From an uncultured Clostridia bacterium (GTDB lineage Bacteria > Bacillota > Clostridia > Oscillospirales > Ruminococcaceae), in the NCBI GenBank assembly GCA_946545645.1, contig CAMNNQ010000176.1, positions 1-64,000 of the forward strand: a stretch of DNA of 64,000 nt, in the 5' to 3' direction. This document shows positions 14,117 through 48,278 of the stretch, piece by piece; positions within the stretch are counted from its first letter, which is position 1; every line of letters starts with the position of its first letter. The translations under genes and the position numbers were made by a program. The notes beneath the pieces are model-generated. The model ran no database searches, was not told where the DNA came from, and saw only the letters and a program-made list of their open reading frames with translations.

Positions 14117-14139
14117 TGGTGACCCGTACGGGAATTGAA
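14117..14139. repeat. Right attachment-site copy inside tRNA-Glu
   Basis: Identical over 23 bases to 1941-1963; it is the T-arm to CCA end of the functional tRNA-Glu, so integration preserved the tRNA. Confidence 0.9.
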
Positions 14140-14191
14140 CCCATGATTCCGCCGTGAAAGGGCGGTGTCTTAACCTCTTGACCAACGGGCC
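14117..14191 (-). tRNA. tRNA-Glu (anticodon TTC)
   Basis: A 75-base cloverleaf with encoded CCA. Acceptor GGCCCGT pairs with ACGGGTC. The anticodon stem is CCGCC / GGCGG around CTTTCAC with anticodon TTC, and the T-loop is TTCAATT. Its 3' end is the integration target. Confidence 0.96.
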
Positions 14192-14210
14192 GAAGAATGG
14201 GAACAGCAAT

Positions 14211-14287
14211 TGGTGGCGGTAACTGGATTTGAACCGGTGACACCCTGGGTATGAACCAAGTGCTCTAGCCAACTGAGCTATACCGCC
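14211..14287 (-). tRNA. tRNA-Met, elongator (anticodon CAT)
   Basis: A 77-base cloverleaf with encoded CCA. Acceptor GGCGGTA pairs with TACCGCC. The anticodon loop TTCATAC gives CAT and matches elongator tRNA-Met rather than tRNA-Ile2. It lies 19 bases upstream of tRNA-Glu on the same transcript. Confidence 0.95.
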
Positions 14288-22108: not shown

Positions 22109-23302
22109 TCAGATAAGCCCTGACCATATTATATTCTGGACATTGTAGAGCGGTTCCGCCGACCATCCGCCTGCGCCCTCGTCAAACGGAACGAACCAGG
22201 CCGCAACGAGCTGCTCGTCCAGATCTATATCCAGCGAGGAAGCGCCCGCTCCTTCGTGCATGATCGTTCTGTCGGAATAGTTGAAGGAAGGAGTGCGCCT
22301 GATATCAAAGCCGATGCCGTAAAGCCTGTTGGGCTCGCGGGCTCCCCAGCAGTTGTCGGGGACTCCGCTGAGCTGGGGAGTGCTCATCTTTTCGACTGTC
22401 TTTCTTCCCAGCAGCCTTACTCCGTCGAACCTGCCGCCGAAAGCGTAAGCGTTGCCGAAGCGGACAAGATCGTATGCTGTGGAATGCAGCCCGCCTGATG
22501 TGGAAGGAAGCAGATCATAGAAGCCCTCCTCCTGCTCGTTTCCTGTCCTCTCTCCTGAGACGATAGATGCCATATATTCCTTGAAGCTCCCGCTGCCGCA
22601 GAAAGCCCTTGCTGCCGTGTCGGCGTTATAGCGGAAATCCGTATCATTCAGGCCGAGAGGACGGAGAATGTTATTTCTGATATAGTCGTTGGCATAAACG
22701 CCTCCGGCGCGGGTAATCACCTCTCCCAGCAGGCAGAAGCCGAAGGAGCAGTACATCCATTCCTTGCCGACAGGTCTTCTCAGCCCGGCAGATATCCCAG
22801 CCTTGACCCAATCGAATTCTCCCTGCCTGTCCCAGCTCTCATAGGCATCTGCGATACGGCTCCAGGAGTTTGTCGGCAAGGGCTCATCAAAGCAGCCGGA
22901 ATCCGGGTAGAGCCCGGAGGTGTGAGTCAGAAGATCTATTATCCTGATATCAGAAAAGGGCTTTTCCTTAAACTGAGGCAGGAACTTTGAGACATAGTCG
23001 CTCAGATTTACTATCCCGTCCTCCACGAGCTGCATTATCGCCGTTGCAGTAAAGACCTTTGTCAGGGATGCGATGCGAAAAACAGTATCGGGCTTCATAA
23101 GAGCACCGTCCCCGAGCATACTTCCCTTTCCGAGTGCAGCGTGCGCGATGACCTTGCCCTTGTGGGAAATACAGTATTCAGCACCGTATATGACCCTTCT
23201 TTCGATCATAGACTCAAATCTCTCGTTCAGCTTGTCGATCCTGCTCCCGTCATAGCCTGTTTCAGCCGGGGTGCAGTCAGTCCTGCCCTTGAAGATCTCC
23301 AT
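22109..23302 (-). CDS. Serine hydrolase, class C beta-lactamase fold
   Basis: A 397-residue protein of the beta-lactamase/esterase (EstB-like, PF00144) family. It has the SxxK nucleophile motif in FRIASLTKVFTAT at about residues 91-103, Tyr in the second motif (MYCSFGF) and a HxG-type third motif (MHEGAG). No signal peptide is visible, so it may act in the cytoplasm as an esterase or peptidase. ATG follows GGGGGAT. It is the first gene of the minus-strand run to 19592. Confidence 0.88.
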   Translation of the reverse strand: MEIFKGRTDCTPAETGYDGSRIDKLNERFESMIERRVIYGAEYCISHKGKVIAHAALGKGSMLGDGALMKPDTVFRIASLTKVFTATAIMQLVEDGIVNLSDYVSKFLPQFKEKPFSDIRIIDLLTHTSGLYPDSGCFDEPLPTNSWSRIADAYESWDRQGEFDWVKAGISAGLRRPVGKEWMYCSFGFCLLGEVITRAGGVYANDYIRNNILRPLGLNDTDFRYNADTAARAFCGSGSFKEYMASIVSGERTGNEQEEGFYDLLPSTSGGLHSTAYDLVRFGNAYAFGGRFDGVRLLGRKTVEKMSTPQLSGVPDNCWGAREPNRLYGIGFDIRRTPSFNYSDRTIMHEGAGASSLDIDLDEQLVAAWFVPFDEGAGGWSAEPLYNVQNIIWSGLI

Positions 23303-23419: not shown

Positions 23420-23514
23420 GTAATACTTTAGAAAAGTATCTGTCTGCCCTGATGCTCATATCAGAAAGAACAGCCGAAGGGATAAGGACTTTAAAGAATA
23501 CAGGAGGGGTAAAT

Positions 23515-25518
23515 ATGGATCACGATATGCTGCTTTTTTCAGAGCTGAGAGTTGTCGCTGTCAGCCCGAAGGAGTCCGAGACCACAGAAGAAGATCTTGT
23601 CCGGGCTGTTACTGTCAATGAAGAGCTGATGGCTCTCGGGCTGACACTGGCTCCCAAGGATATAGTCAGACTTGCAGGCTCGGATGATATCGCCGGGTTC
23701 CTGCCTCGCATCAGAGAATACCTTGGCGATGTCAAGGCCGCACCTATGTATCCGGATTTCCCGGAGCAGGTCATGGCTCTCGACGAATGTGTCCTGCGGT
23801 TCCATCAGGCTCTTCACTATTTCACTACATACGGCCTTGAAGAACTGGCAGGAGTGCAGGTCACAAGAGGCTGGCTGCCTGATATGACAGCGACAGAAAA
23901 GACTCAGCAGGACAAGGCACTGCTGGATGCCAAAGTCATAGCTCTCATTGATGCCTCCGAAAGATTCAGCTACCCCTTCAAGACCATTCTCTCCAAGACC
24001 GAGCGGATGACCGACAAGGAGCGTATGCTCATCGCGGAATGTGCAAAAAATATGCAGCCCGATGAGCTTACCAGCGTAAATGTCACCTTCAAGCAGAATC
24101 TGCTCCTGATCTTCAACGAGATCTTTGCCTCCGAGGGCATTGACAGCGCAAAGAAACTCTCCTGTCTGCACGCCCTCTGCCAGCATACGGGAGATGTCTG
24201 GAAGTGTATGGATTACGCTCTGACCCACTCCCGCTTCCATTTCAGAACATCTCAGAAAAGGCTTATAGTCAAGCTGCTGGAAAGCTACCCTATCGAAGAT
24301 TTCAAGGGCAACCTTGTCCTCTCTAACAAGAAGGCCGAGCGCACTCTGCTCATGCTGAAATACATCGACTTCAATGAGTATTCCCGCAAACGTGAATTCA
24401 AAAACGCCGTAGCCGATCTCCGCTCCGGCAGGATACGCTCCTGGGAATCCGGCGTTAAGTTCCTGGTCGGGAGGAAGGTCCCCGATGCTCTTGATGTATA
24501 CGCAGAGCGCCCGGGTATGATGATAAGACACCTTACATATCTGCTTCGCAACGGCTACAATGCCGGAGATATATTCTCCCGCCTGTCGCCCAGAGCTTCC
24601 CAGCTCAAAACACAGACTCTGGTAAGCCTTGTCAGCTTCTTCCGCCATGAGGTCGAAAAGAATGAGAACGAGCGCAGCTATAACGAAGGGCTGGTCCTCG
24701 GAAAGATGGCGGACCATCTCCTCGGGCAGCGCCTTGCCGCCTGTGAGACACCTCTCAAAGGCAAAAAGGTCTATGTTGACGACTCCGGCTTCGATCTCTC
24801 CCTCTCTGCAATAAGAGTTACCGATAAGTCCTCCGAGGGCGGATATATCCGCTCCGGTCTGGCATATAAGATCCCCGAGGATGTCAGACGCATCCGCTTC
24901 TTTGTTTACTGGAACGATGAGAATCGGGTAGATATCGACCTCCACGCTTCCGCCAACCAGCTTAACGGCGAACTTATGAGGATCGGCTGGAACAGTGATC
25001 TTAAAAACGGAATGATCGTCTTCAGCGGCGACATAACCCATTCCGATGCCGCAGAGTATATCGACATCGACCTGGATAAGGCTCTGTTCGAGCTGGAAGA
25101 TGTCACACTCAATATCAACCTTTTCTCAGGCTATAAGACATTCTCCGAGATCGACGAATGTTTTGTGGGCGCTATGGCTGTCGAAAAGACCGGTGCGGAC
25201 ATTCAGCTCTACGACCCAAAAAACTGCTTCTTTGTCCACTACCTCAAGAGCAAGATGCGGATCATGCACTACGGCTATGTCGATACCCAGCGCCGTGCCA
25301 TCGTATTCGACGGCTTGGAGAGCAGCAACAGCAGCTATTATGAAAAGCCGGAAAGGAACAACTCTTTCTCAGTCAACGATTATCTTGAGATCCTGTTCCG
25401 CGCTCAGGGAACAGCCAAAGTATTCTCTCCCGACGACGCGGATGTCATCCTCGTAATGGGCAAGCCCTCCTCCGAGAAGGAGCTCAGCCTTATCGACAAC
25501 AACTTCTTTATGGAATAA
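23515..25518 (+). CDS. Large protein with C-terminal TerD-like domain
   Basis: A 667-residue cytoplasmic protein. The C-terminal 230 residues (VDDSGFDLSLSA ... IRFFVYWNDENRVDIDLHAS ... IGWNSDL ... FSGDITHSDA) resemble the TerD-like domain of the MXAN_6230/SCO0854 family, including acidic residues of the calcium-binding type. The rest is helical and matches that family's overall shape. ATG 23515 follows an ideal AGGAGGGG. The frame extends 21 codons upstream without support. Function is unknown; TerD domains are tied to stress responses. Confidence 0.75.
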   Translation: MDHDMLLFSELRVVAVSPKESETTEEDLVRAVTVNEELMALGLTLAPKDIVRLAGSDDIAGFLPRIREYLGDVKAAPMYPDFPEQVMALDECVLRFHQALHYFTTYGLEELAGVQVTRGWLPDMTATEKTQQDKALLDAKVIALIDASERFSYPFKTILSKTERMTDKERMLIAECAKNMQPDELTSVNVTFKQNLLLIFNEIFASEGIDSAKKLSCLHALCQHTGDVWKCMDYALTHSRFHFRTSQKRLIVKLLESYPIEDFKGNLVLSNKKAERTLLMLKYIDFNEYSRKREFKNAVADLRSGRIRSWESGVKFLVGRKVPDALDVYAERPGMMIRHLTYLLRNGYNAGDIFSRLSPRASQLKTQTLVSLVSFFRHEVEKNENERSYNEGLVLGKMADHLLGQRLAACETPLKGKKVYVDDSGFDLSLSAIRVTDKSSEGGYIRSGLAYKIPEDVRRIRFFVYWNDENRVDIDLHASANQLNGELMRIGWNSDLKNGMIVFSGDITHSDAAEYIDIDLDKALFELEDVTLNINLFSGYKTFSEIDECFVGAMAVEKTGADIQLYDPKNCFFVHYLKSKMRIMHYGYVDTQRRAIVFDGLESSNSSYYEKPERNNSFSVNDYLEILFRAQGTAKVFSPDDADVILVMGKPSSEKELSLIDNNFFME

Positions 25519-25562: not shown

Positions 25563-25591
25563 TTGACTTGCCCGCCGGTTTATAGTATAAT
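25563..25591 (+). promoter_or_regulatory. Promoter of a large noncoding RNA
   Basis: TTGACT, 17 bases, TATAAT with no gene behind it. The expected start, seven bases after the -10, falls on the GGG that opens the first RNA helix. Confidence 0.85.
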
Positions 25592-25597
25592 GGTTCA

Positions 25598-26306
25598 GGG
25601 CAAACGTTCACGCATGATCATAGCAGCATACTTTTACTTTGTCACCTGTGAGTGCCCGAAAGGGCGCACAGTTATCATGCAGTGAGCAGGCTGTTTCATA
25701 GTTTGCCCGGAATACACGCAAGCGTTCCTGCATAGTTTAGACAACTTCCTTTTACACTACTGGGAGGCAGCGTCTCCGAAAGGAGACCTGCTTGTGTTTA
25801 TGCAGTGAGTCTGTTGTCAGACAGCTTGCCAAACCCCCGCGGCCGGAAAGCGTTTCCTGCACCCATTTTGTGCGGCGTTTCCGTCACAAAGCGGCAGCTT
25901 CCTTTTAAAAAACATGTCTTGTTTTTGTGCAGGCAAGTCCGCTGTCTCATAGCTTTCCGGTCTATTTTTTCCGTTTACAGACGAGGCTCCCTTTCGGAGC
26001 GGAAAATGTTTCTGTTCCCGGCTTACTTTTAATAGCTTTTTCAGCGGACTGAGGCTCATGCTTCAGCCTGCCTTCGATCGGGAGCTGATCGCCGGCAAAC
26101 AGTCTGTAAGCAAAAAAGGCAGCCCTTCGGTGCTGCCGGACGATAAGCGTTTGAAGAACTTGTGGGTAATCGCCTTTGAACGGGCAGATGACTTCCTTTT
26201 GATCCTTCACCATTTCCCCTTCACTTTTCTTCAAGTAAGTCATCAGGCAGCTTATCGTTTTATAGTAAAAAACACCGCCCCGGGGCTCCCCGAGGCGGTA
26301 TTCTTT
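25598..26306 (+). ncRNA. Large structured RNA with repeated modules
   Basis: About 710 bases with no gene, between a consensus promoter and a terminator. Three adjacent modules share one plan: an outer helix, gtt(c/t), an inner helix, an internal hairpin, then a linker. Outer helices: GGGCAAAC/GTTTGCCC (25598, 25701), GCAAGC/GCTTGC (25718, 25824), CCGGAAAGC/GCTTTCCGG (25843, 25952). Inner helices: GCATGAT/ATCATGC, CTGCATA/TATGCAG, CCTGCAC/GTGCAGG. A fourth module has CGATAAGC/GCTTATCG (26141, 26250) and GATGACTT/AAGTCATC. Pairing is kept while bases differ, which indicates selected RNA structure. Two internal hairpins carry GAAA loops; another, at 26118-26137, has a TTCG loop. CTTCCTTTT occurs at 25745, 25898 and 26192. 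The class is not recognised. Confidence 0.8.
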
Positions 26307-26308
26307 TT
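26274..26308. terminator. Bidirectional terminator ending the RNA
   Basis: ACCGCC ... GGCGGT around GGGG-CCCC, followed by ATTCTTTTT on the plus strand and TTTTTT on the minus strand. It also serves the serine hydrolase gene whose stop it touches. Confidence 0.85.
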
Positions 26309-27431
26309 ATGAATTGAAGTAATTGTAAACATACTGCGAAACGTATGCGAAATAGTAATTGAGATCGAAGGCTATATCCGGACATTCGCACATCAGTACA
26401 AGGATATAGTCCTCACAGGGAGACTCGACTATCGCAGCATCATGGGAAACATCATAGGTATCTCCGGTCTTGTTGGCAACGAACACTCCGTAAGGTATCC
26501 CTGCCGGGATCTTGCCGCGCCAGTGCTGCTTTCCAAGCATATCAAGTATCTTTTCGGAGGCCTCTTCGTTGACACATTTCCCCCGGTATATCATTTCCAG
26601 GCAGTGGCCGACATCCGAAGCACAGGTCTGGTTGCTGCCTTCGTGCCAGGCAAGACCTTCGTAGTTTGTTGAGGGCTGCAGGCCGTGATACTGCTTGGTA
26701 TTGGGCAGGCCGTTGGCCTCGCACCATTTGGTTATGTATTCCGGGCCCATCGCCCAGACCATAGCATTGAAGGCCTGATTGTTGCTCATTACCGCCATAT
26801 TATACATATAGGGATTATATGCGTTCTCGTCTATCTCGCCGGCATAGATCTTCTCATAGCTGGCGCAGAGGGCGAAGAGCTTTATCATACTTGCGGGATA
26901 AAGGACATGATCGTTTATCGTGAATTTCTCGCCGGTATCTAGATTCTGCATATAGCAGCTCCATTCTCCCGGATACTGGGAGATCATCTCCTCGATATCG
27001 TCCTTGAGGTCTGCTATGGGCAGCTTTTTGTGGTTCGGGTTATTGTCAATGATAGGCTCCGGCTCGGTGGTGACTTCTTCTGTCGTTACGACCGGCGACT
27101 CTGTAACGGTATCCGGCTCCGAGCTATCGTCAGGAGGCGCTGTCTGAGTCGGTGCAGGAGTCGCAGTCTCTGTTTCGGGGGCAGTTACGCTTTCGGGGGC
27201 TGTCGTCTCATCAGGCTTGGAGAAGATCGTGACCAGCGGCGGATCGTTCATCATATTCTGAGTAAGGAACGGGGTCAGAGAAGATGTATCTTTGTCATTT
27301 CTGTCAGAGGTTGCGAACAGAACTATCAGGACCACAAGTGCAACTATAACGACACCTATAACGCCAAGCCCCACAGGCCCGATCTTCTTGAAAGCGCCGC
27401 CTACCCGGCTGCTATCGCCTGAATCTTTCAT
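26307..27431 (-). CDS. Membrane-anchored class A beta-lactamase-like protein
   Basis: A 374-residue protein with an N-terminal transmembrane helix (about 18-40) and a Thr/Pro/Glu-rich linker (about 70-125). An extracellular serine hydrolase domain follows with the three active-site motifs: SMIK in YPASMIKLFAL, SNN in MSNNQAF, and KTG in ANKTGDTYD. Such proteins belong to the penicillin-binding/beta-lactamase-2 group. They may hydrolyse peptidoglycan peptides or antibiotics; the lack of the usual Glu166 region in an obvious form makes true beta-lactamase activity uncertain. ATG follows GGAGG. The linker is like that of the carboxypeptidase at 30473. Confidence 0.88.
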   Translation of the reverse strand: MKDSGDSSRVGGAFKKIGPVGLGVIGVVIVALVVLIVLFATSDRNDKDTSSLTPFLTQNMMNDPPLVTIFSKPDETTAPESVTAPETETATPAPTQTAPPDDSSEPDTVTESPVVTTEEVTTEPEPIIDNNPNHKKLPIADLKDDIEEMISQYPGEWSCYMQNLDTGEKFTINDHVLYPASMIKLFALCASYEKIYAGEIDENAYNPYMYNMAVMSNNQAFNAMVWAMGPEYITKWCEANGLPNTKQYHGLQPSTNYEGLAWHEGSNQTCASDVGHCLEMIYRGKCVNEEASEKILDMLGKQHWRGKIPAGIPYGVFVANKTGDTYDVSHDAAIVESPCEDYILVLMCECPDIAFDLNYYFAYVSQYVYNYFNS

Positions 27432-48048: not shown

Positions 48049-48054
48049 AATCTG

Positions 48055-48236
48055 TAAGAGATAGAGGCGCGGTCAAGAAGAGTAGCTTTCCCTGACATTT
48101 ATGTCGCGGCACCAAAGCCTGCGGGGAATGTGAAAGGCGCGACCGCCGAAGCGCGGGTGTTGGGATCCCGCAGCTGACCGCTGCTTTAACAGAGCCCCGG
48201 TTGTCATCATGCTTTATGATGGAGTGCTATCGACAT
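48055..48236 (+). promoter_or_regulatory. Lysine riboswitch (L box)
   Basis: The aptamer shows the conserved blocks AGATAGAGGCGCGG, AGAGTAG, GTGAAAGGCGCGACCGCCGA and GGTGTTGGGATCCC (each in order), closed by GATAG (48059) pairing with CTATC (48227). A terminator follows at 48279. Lysine binding should stop transcription before asd-dapA-dapB, which make the lysine and diaminopimelate precursor. Confidence 0.93.
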
Positions 48237-48278
48237 AAGTTATATTGTGTCAACATTCTTATTATATTGTATGATGCG

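Follow-up and report, generated by a model that had tools for sequence, protein, structure and literature searches.

A promoter-driven array of pseudoknot RNA modules and a predicted Ro60-like partner protein in an uncultured Clostridia bacterium

The window analysed here is a 64,000-nucleotide stretch (positions 1 to 64,000 of contig CAMNNQ010000176.1, assembly GCA_946545645.1) from an uncultured Clostridia bacterium of the Ruminococcaceae. It holds a protein gene of about 670 codons and, downstream of it on the same strand, an RNA array of five tandem modules (25598-26257; one recognised by eye alone) with a promoter on its 5' side and a terminator on its 3' side (Table 1). An initial annotation of this DNA had described a consensus promoter, a large structured RNA whose modules covary and a closing terminator, and all three are borne out: the first base of the outermost helix lies 6 nt past the -10 box, the array strand folds better than its shuffles (z -5.84; 0 of 20 shuffles as good), and a GC-rich hairpin with a T-rich run ends the array; this terminator is missing from the output of a simpler terminator scan. 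In a list of open reading frames of at least 80 amino acids, those lying within the RNA are 80-93 amino acids long. In an Rfam scan of the window the array reaches no family's cut-off, ROOL, GOLLD and OLE included, and at E<=10 its region has four weak matches far under the cut-offs, three of them near the terminator, the fourth upstream. Rfam scans of the array's relatives gave no class at cut-off, and blastn of the array against phages gave no match. The array is, like ROOL, GOLLD and OLE, a large structured noncoding RNA of bacteria, but the likeness first suggested by size goes no further, since it matches none of them in Rfam and differs in its tandem pseudoknot modules and its tight link to a protein. 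The array RNA is a new, widespread RNA class.

Table 1. The RNA array, its transcription signals and the adjoining protein gene (window coordinates; P1, outer helix; P2, inner helix; PK, pseudoknot helix)
Feature	Coordinates	Strand	Details
Partner protein gene	23452..25518	+	688 aa from first ATG; 667 aa from 23515 by homology; N-terminal part helical, Ro60-like (predicted fold); C-terminal part TerD-like
Sigma-70-type promoter	25563..25591	+	TTGACT-17-TATAAT; 11/12 consensus matches; -35 25563-25568, -10 25586-25591
Module 1	25598..25708	+	P1 25598-25605/25701-25708; P2 25612-25618/25674-25680; PK 25622-25627/25690-25695; core ATACTTTTA 25628-25636
Module 2	25717..25829	+	P1 25718-25723/25824-25829; P2 25728-25734/25799-25805; PK 25740-25745/25813-25818; core TTCCTTTTA 25746-25754
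Module 3	25843..25960	+	P1 25843-25851/25952-25960; P2 25856-25862/25927-25933; PK 25893-25898/25941-25946; core TTCCTTTTA 25899-25907
Module 4 (divergent)	25973..26111	+	P1 25973-25982/26102-26111; PK CCGGC/GCCGG near 26018-26022/26091-26095; core TTACTTTTA 26023-26031; pairing by eye
Module 5	26141..26257	+	P1 26141-26148/26250-26257; P2 26151-26158/26227-26234; PK 26187-26192/26239-26244; core TTCCTTTTG 26193-26201
Terminator	26273..26306	+	GC-rich hairpin (~26273-26299), then T-rich run; hairpin scan, plus read from sequence

The nested outer and inner helices proposed at first for three modules are present, with complementary strands, where they had been placed, and the fourth, "looser" module mentioned with them is module 5. 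That plan was right as far as it went; it passed over the divergent module 4, the third helix that every module contains and the conserved run next to that helix. In it, the six bases ahead of the run (WUMCUUUUA) are paired with six beyond the inner helix, forming a pseudoknot (GACAAC with GTTGTC in module 2; GATGAC with GTCATC in module 5), and the run itself is unpaired, directly 3' of the helix's first strand. Module length is about 100 nt, and the sequence differs from module to module. In a set of ten modules, with relatives from two genomes, 99.2% of the cells of the outer and pseudoknot helices are paired and 10 of 14 pairs are doubly changed; sliding one strand by 1-3 columns lowers pairing to 25-49%. 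A covariance model (R1), built on P1 and PK with P2 not used, finds 64 modules in 23 loci, in which P1 and PK are 96.3% paired with double changes at 12 of the 14 pairs, and a second set of 109 distinct modules is likewise 96.3% paired; module sets found by R1 are fitted to it, so these figures are biased towards the model. The helices, whose loss from relatives had been named beforehand as a result that would speak against a structured RNA, are thus retained. Module 4 is not scored by R1 at E<=0.05; its counterpart in a relative (L008, 2551-2679) is scored, with an E value of 0.012.

Not all measures of covariation exceed their shuffled controls: the pair types of the ten-module set were equalled in 492 of 500 shuffles, and the number of pairs with a double change in the 109-module set was as high in 115 of 500. 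Because R1 ignores P2, this helix provides an independent check of the structure. Its mean stem score is 20.1, compared with 12.7 when partners are swapped between loci (standard deviation 0.38; maximum of 200 trials 13.7), and in the second set the values are 20.1 and 12.6. The run C-N-U-M-C-U-U-Y-U, which takes in the last part of the first PK strand and the bases after it, is present in 114 of the 114 matches of the second set, a conservation that is partly built in because R1 favours the run.

Transcription signals recur among the relatives. Just before the first module, a promoter with at least 9 of 12 consensus matches is found in 39 of 72 distinct arrays, compared with 1.7% of random positions, and a terminator-like hairpin lies no more than 120 nt downstream of 36 of the 72, compared with 12 of 258 random places. 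By these tests promoter and terminator are both missing from many of the single-module RNAs that lie upstream of Lachnospiraceae-type genes; at two loci, L147 and L131, a -10-like box is found somewhat further upstream. A relative at L055 (4052-4558) has, by eye, a second consensus promoter between its modules 2 and 3, as if two transcripts were made.

The initial annotation recognised a structured RNA of no Rfam class and overlooked the partner protein gene beside it. This gene lies upstream of the array, on the same strand, at 13 of the 23 array loci, and downstream at two. Among 396 genomes of the bacterial family R1 finds modules in 14, and a profile of the protein picks out 14, the identical set. 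The chance of such agreement between independent features is about 5e-26, or about 2e-10 when genera (6 of 126) are counted, the true figure being less extreme because the genomes are related. Within the genus the RNA occurs in 9 of 16 genomes and the protein in 8, all of them among those 9; the genome with RNA and without protein (G002) is 77% complete. A class-wide sample of 341 genomes gave the RNA in one, that of the window, and the protein in two, the second being G677, whose homologue is a distant one (E 2e-13); that genome has no module, and the 3.9 kb examined show no hairpin on the gene's strand. The two genes are not always neighbours: in G007 and G014 they are on different contigs and other genes flank the array, and three genomes (G285, G409 and G419) have one array beside the gene and another without it. 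G006 was dropped as an unlinked case, its gene (C58:241-2238) and array (C142) being near contig ends where a contig break may part neighbours.

We also scanned public genomes from the protein side, which gave 76 loci from the best 80 matches, a sample that overlaps the earlier genomes and includes some near-identical loci. They come from Ruminococcus, Oscillospiraceae, Lachnospiraceae, Erysipelotrichaceae, Christensenellaceae and others, and by title are mostly from rumen and gut. R1 modules are found beside the gene at 63 of the 76, and all 114 matches are on the gene's strand. With its filters off, R1 gives further matches just upstream at five loci (L128, E 3e-4; L136, L137, L132 and L143, weak, E 0.2-3.8), and L166 has no module but a short UCCUUCU hairpin on both sides of the gene. 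No module was found with filters off at L093, L110, L113, L160, L161, L162 or L165; three of these (L110, L161 and L162) are at contig ends, and a search for the short hairpin at L093, L113, L160, L162 and L165 found none. Overall the RNA and the protein are very likely partners, with binding between them predicted. That the RNA travels with the protein gene suggests an RNA-protein particle comparable to Ro60-Y RNA complexes.

The position of the modules also bears on whether they are a cis-acting leader, in which the protein would bind copies of a signal in its own RNA and so control its own expression. At 31 of the 63 linked loci the modules are upstream of the gene, and several loci have no obvious terminator between RNA and gene; however, at the other 32 they are downstream, many with a consensus promoter and terminator of their own, and neither the arrays on other contigs (G007, G014) nor the second arrays without a gene beside them (G285, G409, G419) fit autoregulation in cis. 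We consider this explanation unlikely. Tandem pseudoknot units next to a single protein gene, with a patchy distribution, would also be expected of a type III-like toxin-antitoxin system, in which the RNA modules inhibit the adjoining protein; type III systems are described as pairing a protein toxin with a repeat RNA. The likeness to ToxI lies in the repeated pseudoknot units beside a protein gene, but the ToxI unit is about 36 nt, the present modules are about 100 nt and varied in sequence, and the protein differs from such toxins in fold and in size, having about 670 amino acids with TerD-like and Ro60-like parts. Neither the Pfam results nor PADLOC (3 proteins) gave a toxin family or a small endoribonuclease of the ToxN kind, and in G007 and G014 the array is away from the protein gene; a type III-like system thus appears improbable.

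The reading as a particle of the Ro60-Y RNA kind draws in part on the predicted fold of the protein. In the AlphaFold prediction a C-terminal TerD domain follows an N-terminal helical part that resembles Ro60/Rsr, and the match would be to the helical ring of those proteins. Several results do not confirm the comparison. The window protein matches no Pfam family at E<=10, TROVE (PF05731) included, and TROVE is absent among the matches listed for 53 and for 29 homologues; hhalign against the TROVE profile gives a probability of 0.1; a Foldseek search with the N-terminal domain alone does not place Ro60 among its top 50 matches; and the C-terminal vWA domain of Ro60/TROVE proteins is not found, a TerD-like domain being there instead. 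By sequence the window protein has no convincing solved relative. Canonical TROVE genes occur in 3 of the 396 family genomes and in 0 of the 14 with the RNA and protein. The same bacterial family also has TROVE proteins of another group, about 550 amino acids long and with 3248 relatives (L168 and L169, in G177 and G067). Several Lachnospiraceae-type homologues of the partner protein (L146-L157) are 790-950 amino acids long, and ahead of their TerD-like part lies a long insert that by eye looks coiled-coil-like.

The nearest named family is NCBIfam NF041916, the MXAN_6230/SCO0854 family RING domain-containing protein, which 26 of 29 diverse homologues match (best E 1e-23). The window protein itself scores 46.9 bits against it, well below the cut-off of 600, with a homologous region at 450-604. 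In the literature covered, to which papers under other licences did not belong, none was found that names MXAN_6230 or SCO0854, and, among the texts consulted, none that joins TROVE with TerD.

Distant homologues, mostly of 21-26% identity, are found on virus-like contigs, many of more than 100 kb, where weak R1 matches are mostly just upstream and on the gene's strand. The strict gut-module pattern has no match in viral contigs, and a strict gut descriptor matches 1 of 72 viral loci. What the weak matches have in common is a simpler unit, GGCUAU, stem, WUCCUUCUA, loop, stem, AAUUUCC; a descriptor of it gives 64 matches on the gene's strand at 32 of the 72 viral loci and 0 on the opposite strand or in shuffled sequence, counts taken on the very sequences that defined the motif. 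Three of the 32 loci are duplicates (L227, L228 and L230), and the matches at L225 and L234 are without the GGCU part. A looser scan for the unit matched both strands and was dropped. The unit is present in 10 of 13 named records (Xanthomonas phage XacN1, four Streptomyces, Kitasatospora, Niallia, Variovorax and two other phage records) and was not found in those of Embleya, Deinococcus and Rhodococcus phage Weasels2. Matches in these records number 15 on the gene's strand and 2, both from XacN1, on the other, and 65 shuffles gave 1; five of the 13 had been inspected before, five of the eight new ones have the motif, and one gene start (L249) is estimated. The homologues of Kitasatospora and of the four Streptomyces, which have the short hairpin upstream, carry the annotation MXAN_6230/SCO0854. 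In phage Weasels2 (L258), where no UCCUUCU hairpin was found, the homologue directly follows a phage tRNA cluster, and at phage loci L189, L212 and L249 a tmRNA and several tRNAs lie near the homologue's gene. A new ornate RNA of unrelated function, a ROOL- or GOLLD-like scaffold merely sharing a genomic island with the protein, would account for the size, gut habitat, modular build and lack of an Rfam match at cut-off, but is very unlikely given that the RNA occurs in the same 14 genomes as the protein, unlinked cases included, lies on either side of the gene and always on its strand, and has a related hairpin beside homologues this distant.

Further links to Y RNAs come from the phage versions. 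In seven viral loci scanned with Rfam, YrlA (RF02553) was matched below cut-off in four, at five places (E 6e-5 to 2e-3, the best being 5.6e-5), and at a sixth place with E 0.09. When the five places were folded, a T-arm and an acceptor-like hairpin were present in all five, a D-arm in four, and a closing stem next to CAUCCUUCU in four, and the order of these elements is that of a permuted tRNA mimic. Some phage versions resemble YrlA in enclosing a putative tRNA-like domain (T-arm, acceptor and D-arm) in a hairpin. UCCUUCU, T-arm and D-arm follow one another in this order at 9 of 72 viral loci, two of them (L182 and L227) duplicates, and at 0 on the opposite strand. Under a strict definition a T-arm is also found in 4 of 72 gut arrays (0 on the opposite strand; 0.05 expected from shuffling); the window array has no T-arm or tRNA-like domain, and YrlA has no match at all in the window. 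Ten phage records, mostly fragments and eight of them with the tRNA-like domain, contained no canonical TROVE gene, and RtcB was not found in them. On a plasmid of Variovorax sp. WDL1 (L256) the gene of a distant homologue is about 1.3 kb from rtcR. The product of rtcR activates an RNA repair operon, and the rtcBA operons of some bacteria hold Rsr and Y RNA (PMC7790460), so this neighbourhood is a further likeness to the Ro60/Rsr system. YrlA binds the Rsr ring through its basal stem and PNPase through its tRNA-like part (PMC8394870).

These observations suggest that the RNA and protein probably form a divergent particle of the Ro60-Y RNA type. As in Ro60/Rsr with YrlA, the RNA gene adjoins the protein gene (here at 63 of 76 loci, with binding predicted); unlike them, the protein has no TROVE sequence match and a TerD-like domain replaces vWA, and the RNA is an array built of as many as five pseudoknot modules. 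From the predicted fold, the arrangement of the genes and the tRNA-like insert we infer, as the best-supported mechanism and one that we think reasonably likely, that the protein is a Ro60-type ring and the RNA its tether or gate. The RNA would be free-standing, with each of its five pseudoknot modules binding one protein molecule, the product of the gene directly upstream; the conserved unpaired core beside the inner helix is the putative binding site, and through its tandem modules a single RNA would bring together several copies of the protein. It might then tether or gate the protein ring, as Y RNA does for Rsr, and the particle would probably act like the Ro60-Y RNA complexes of animals and bacteria on damaged or misfolded RNA; in some phage versions the module loop would enclose a tRNA-like domain, as in YrlA. 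A wider proposal, to which we give about an even chance, is a superfamily of Ro60-like proteins with TerD in place of vWA, each with its own UCCUUYU-hairpin RNA, in gut Firmicutes, actinobacteria, proteobacteria and jumbo phages. The module of gut clostridia would have turned into a pseudoknot and multiplied, so that one RNA carries a multi-ring particle, and the phage module would carry a tRNA mimic as in Y RNA.

Ro60 and Y RNAs range from bacteria to people, and, according to PMC7790460, bacterial Ro60 and Y RNA had been functionally studied only in Deinococcus at the time of that paper. If the proposal is right, there is a second, abundant lineage of Ro60-type particles whose RNA class Rfam lacks and whose RNA has a clear signature, UCCUUYU beside a helix, and many new systems become available for asking what such particles do. 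The uncharacterised MXAN_6230/SCO0854 proteins would also gain a candidate partner RNA, and the gaps beside genes of this type in Streptomyces and in phage XacN1 would be explained.

Elsewhere in the window, two beta-lactamase-fold proteins flank the RNA-protein pair (26307-27431 and 22109-23302; PF13354, PF00144). A lysine riboswitch (RF00168, E 5e-22) is found at 48054-48237, and tRNA-Glu and tRNA-Met genes are on the minus strand at 14117-14287.
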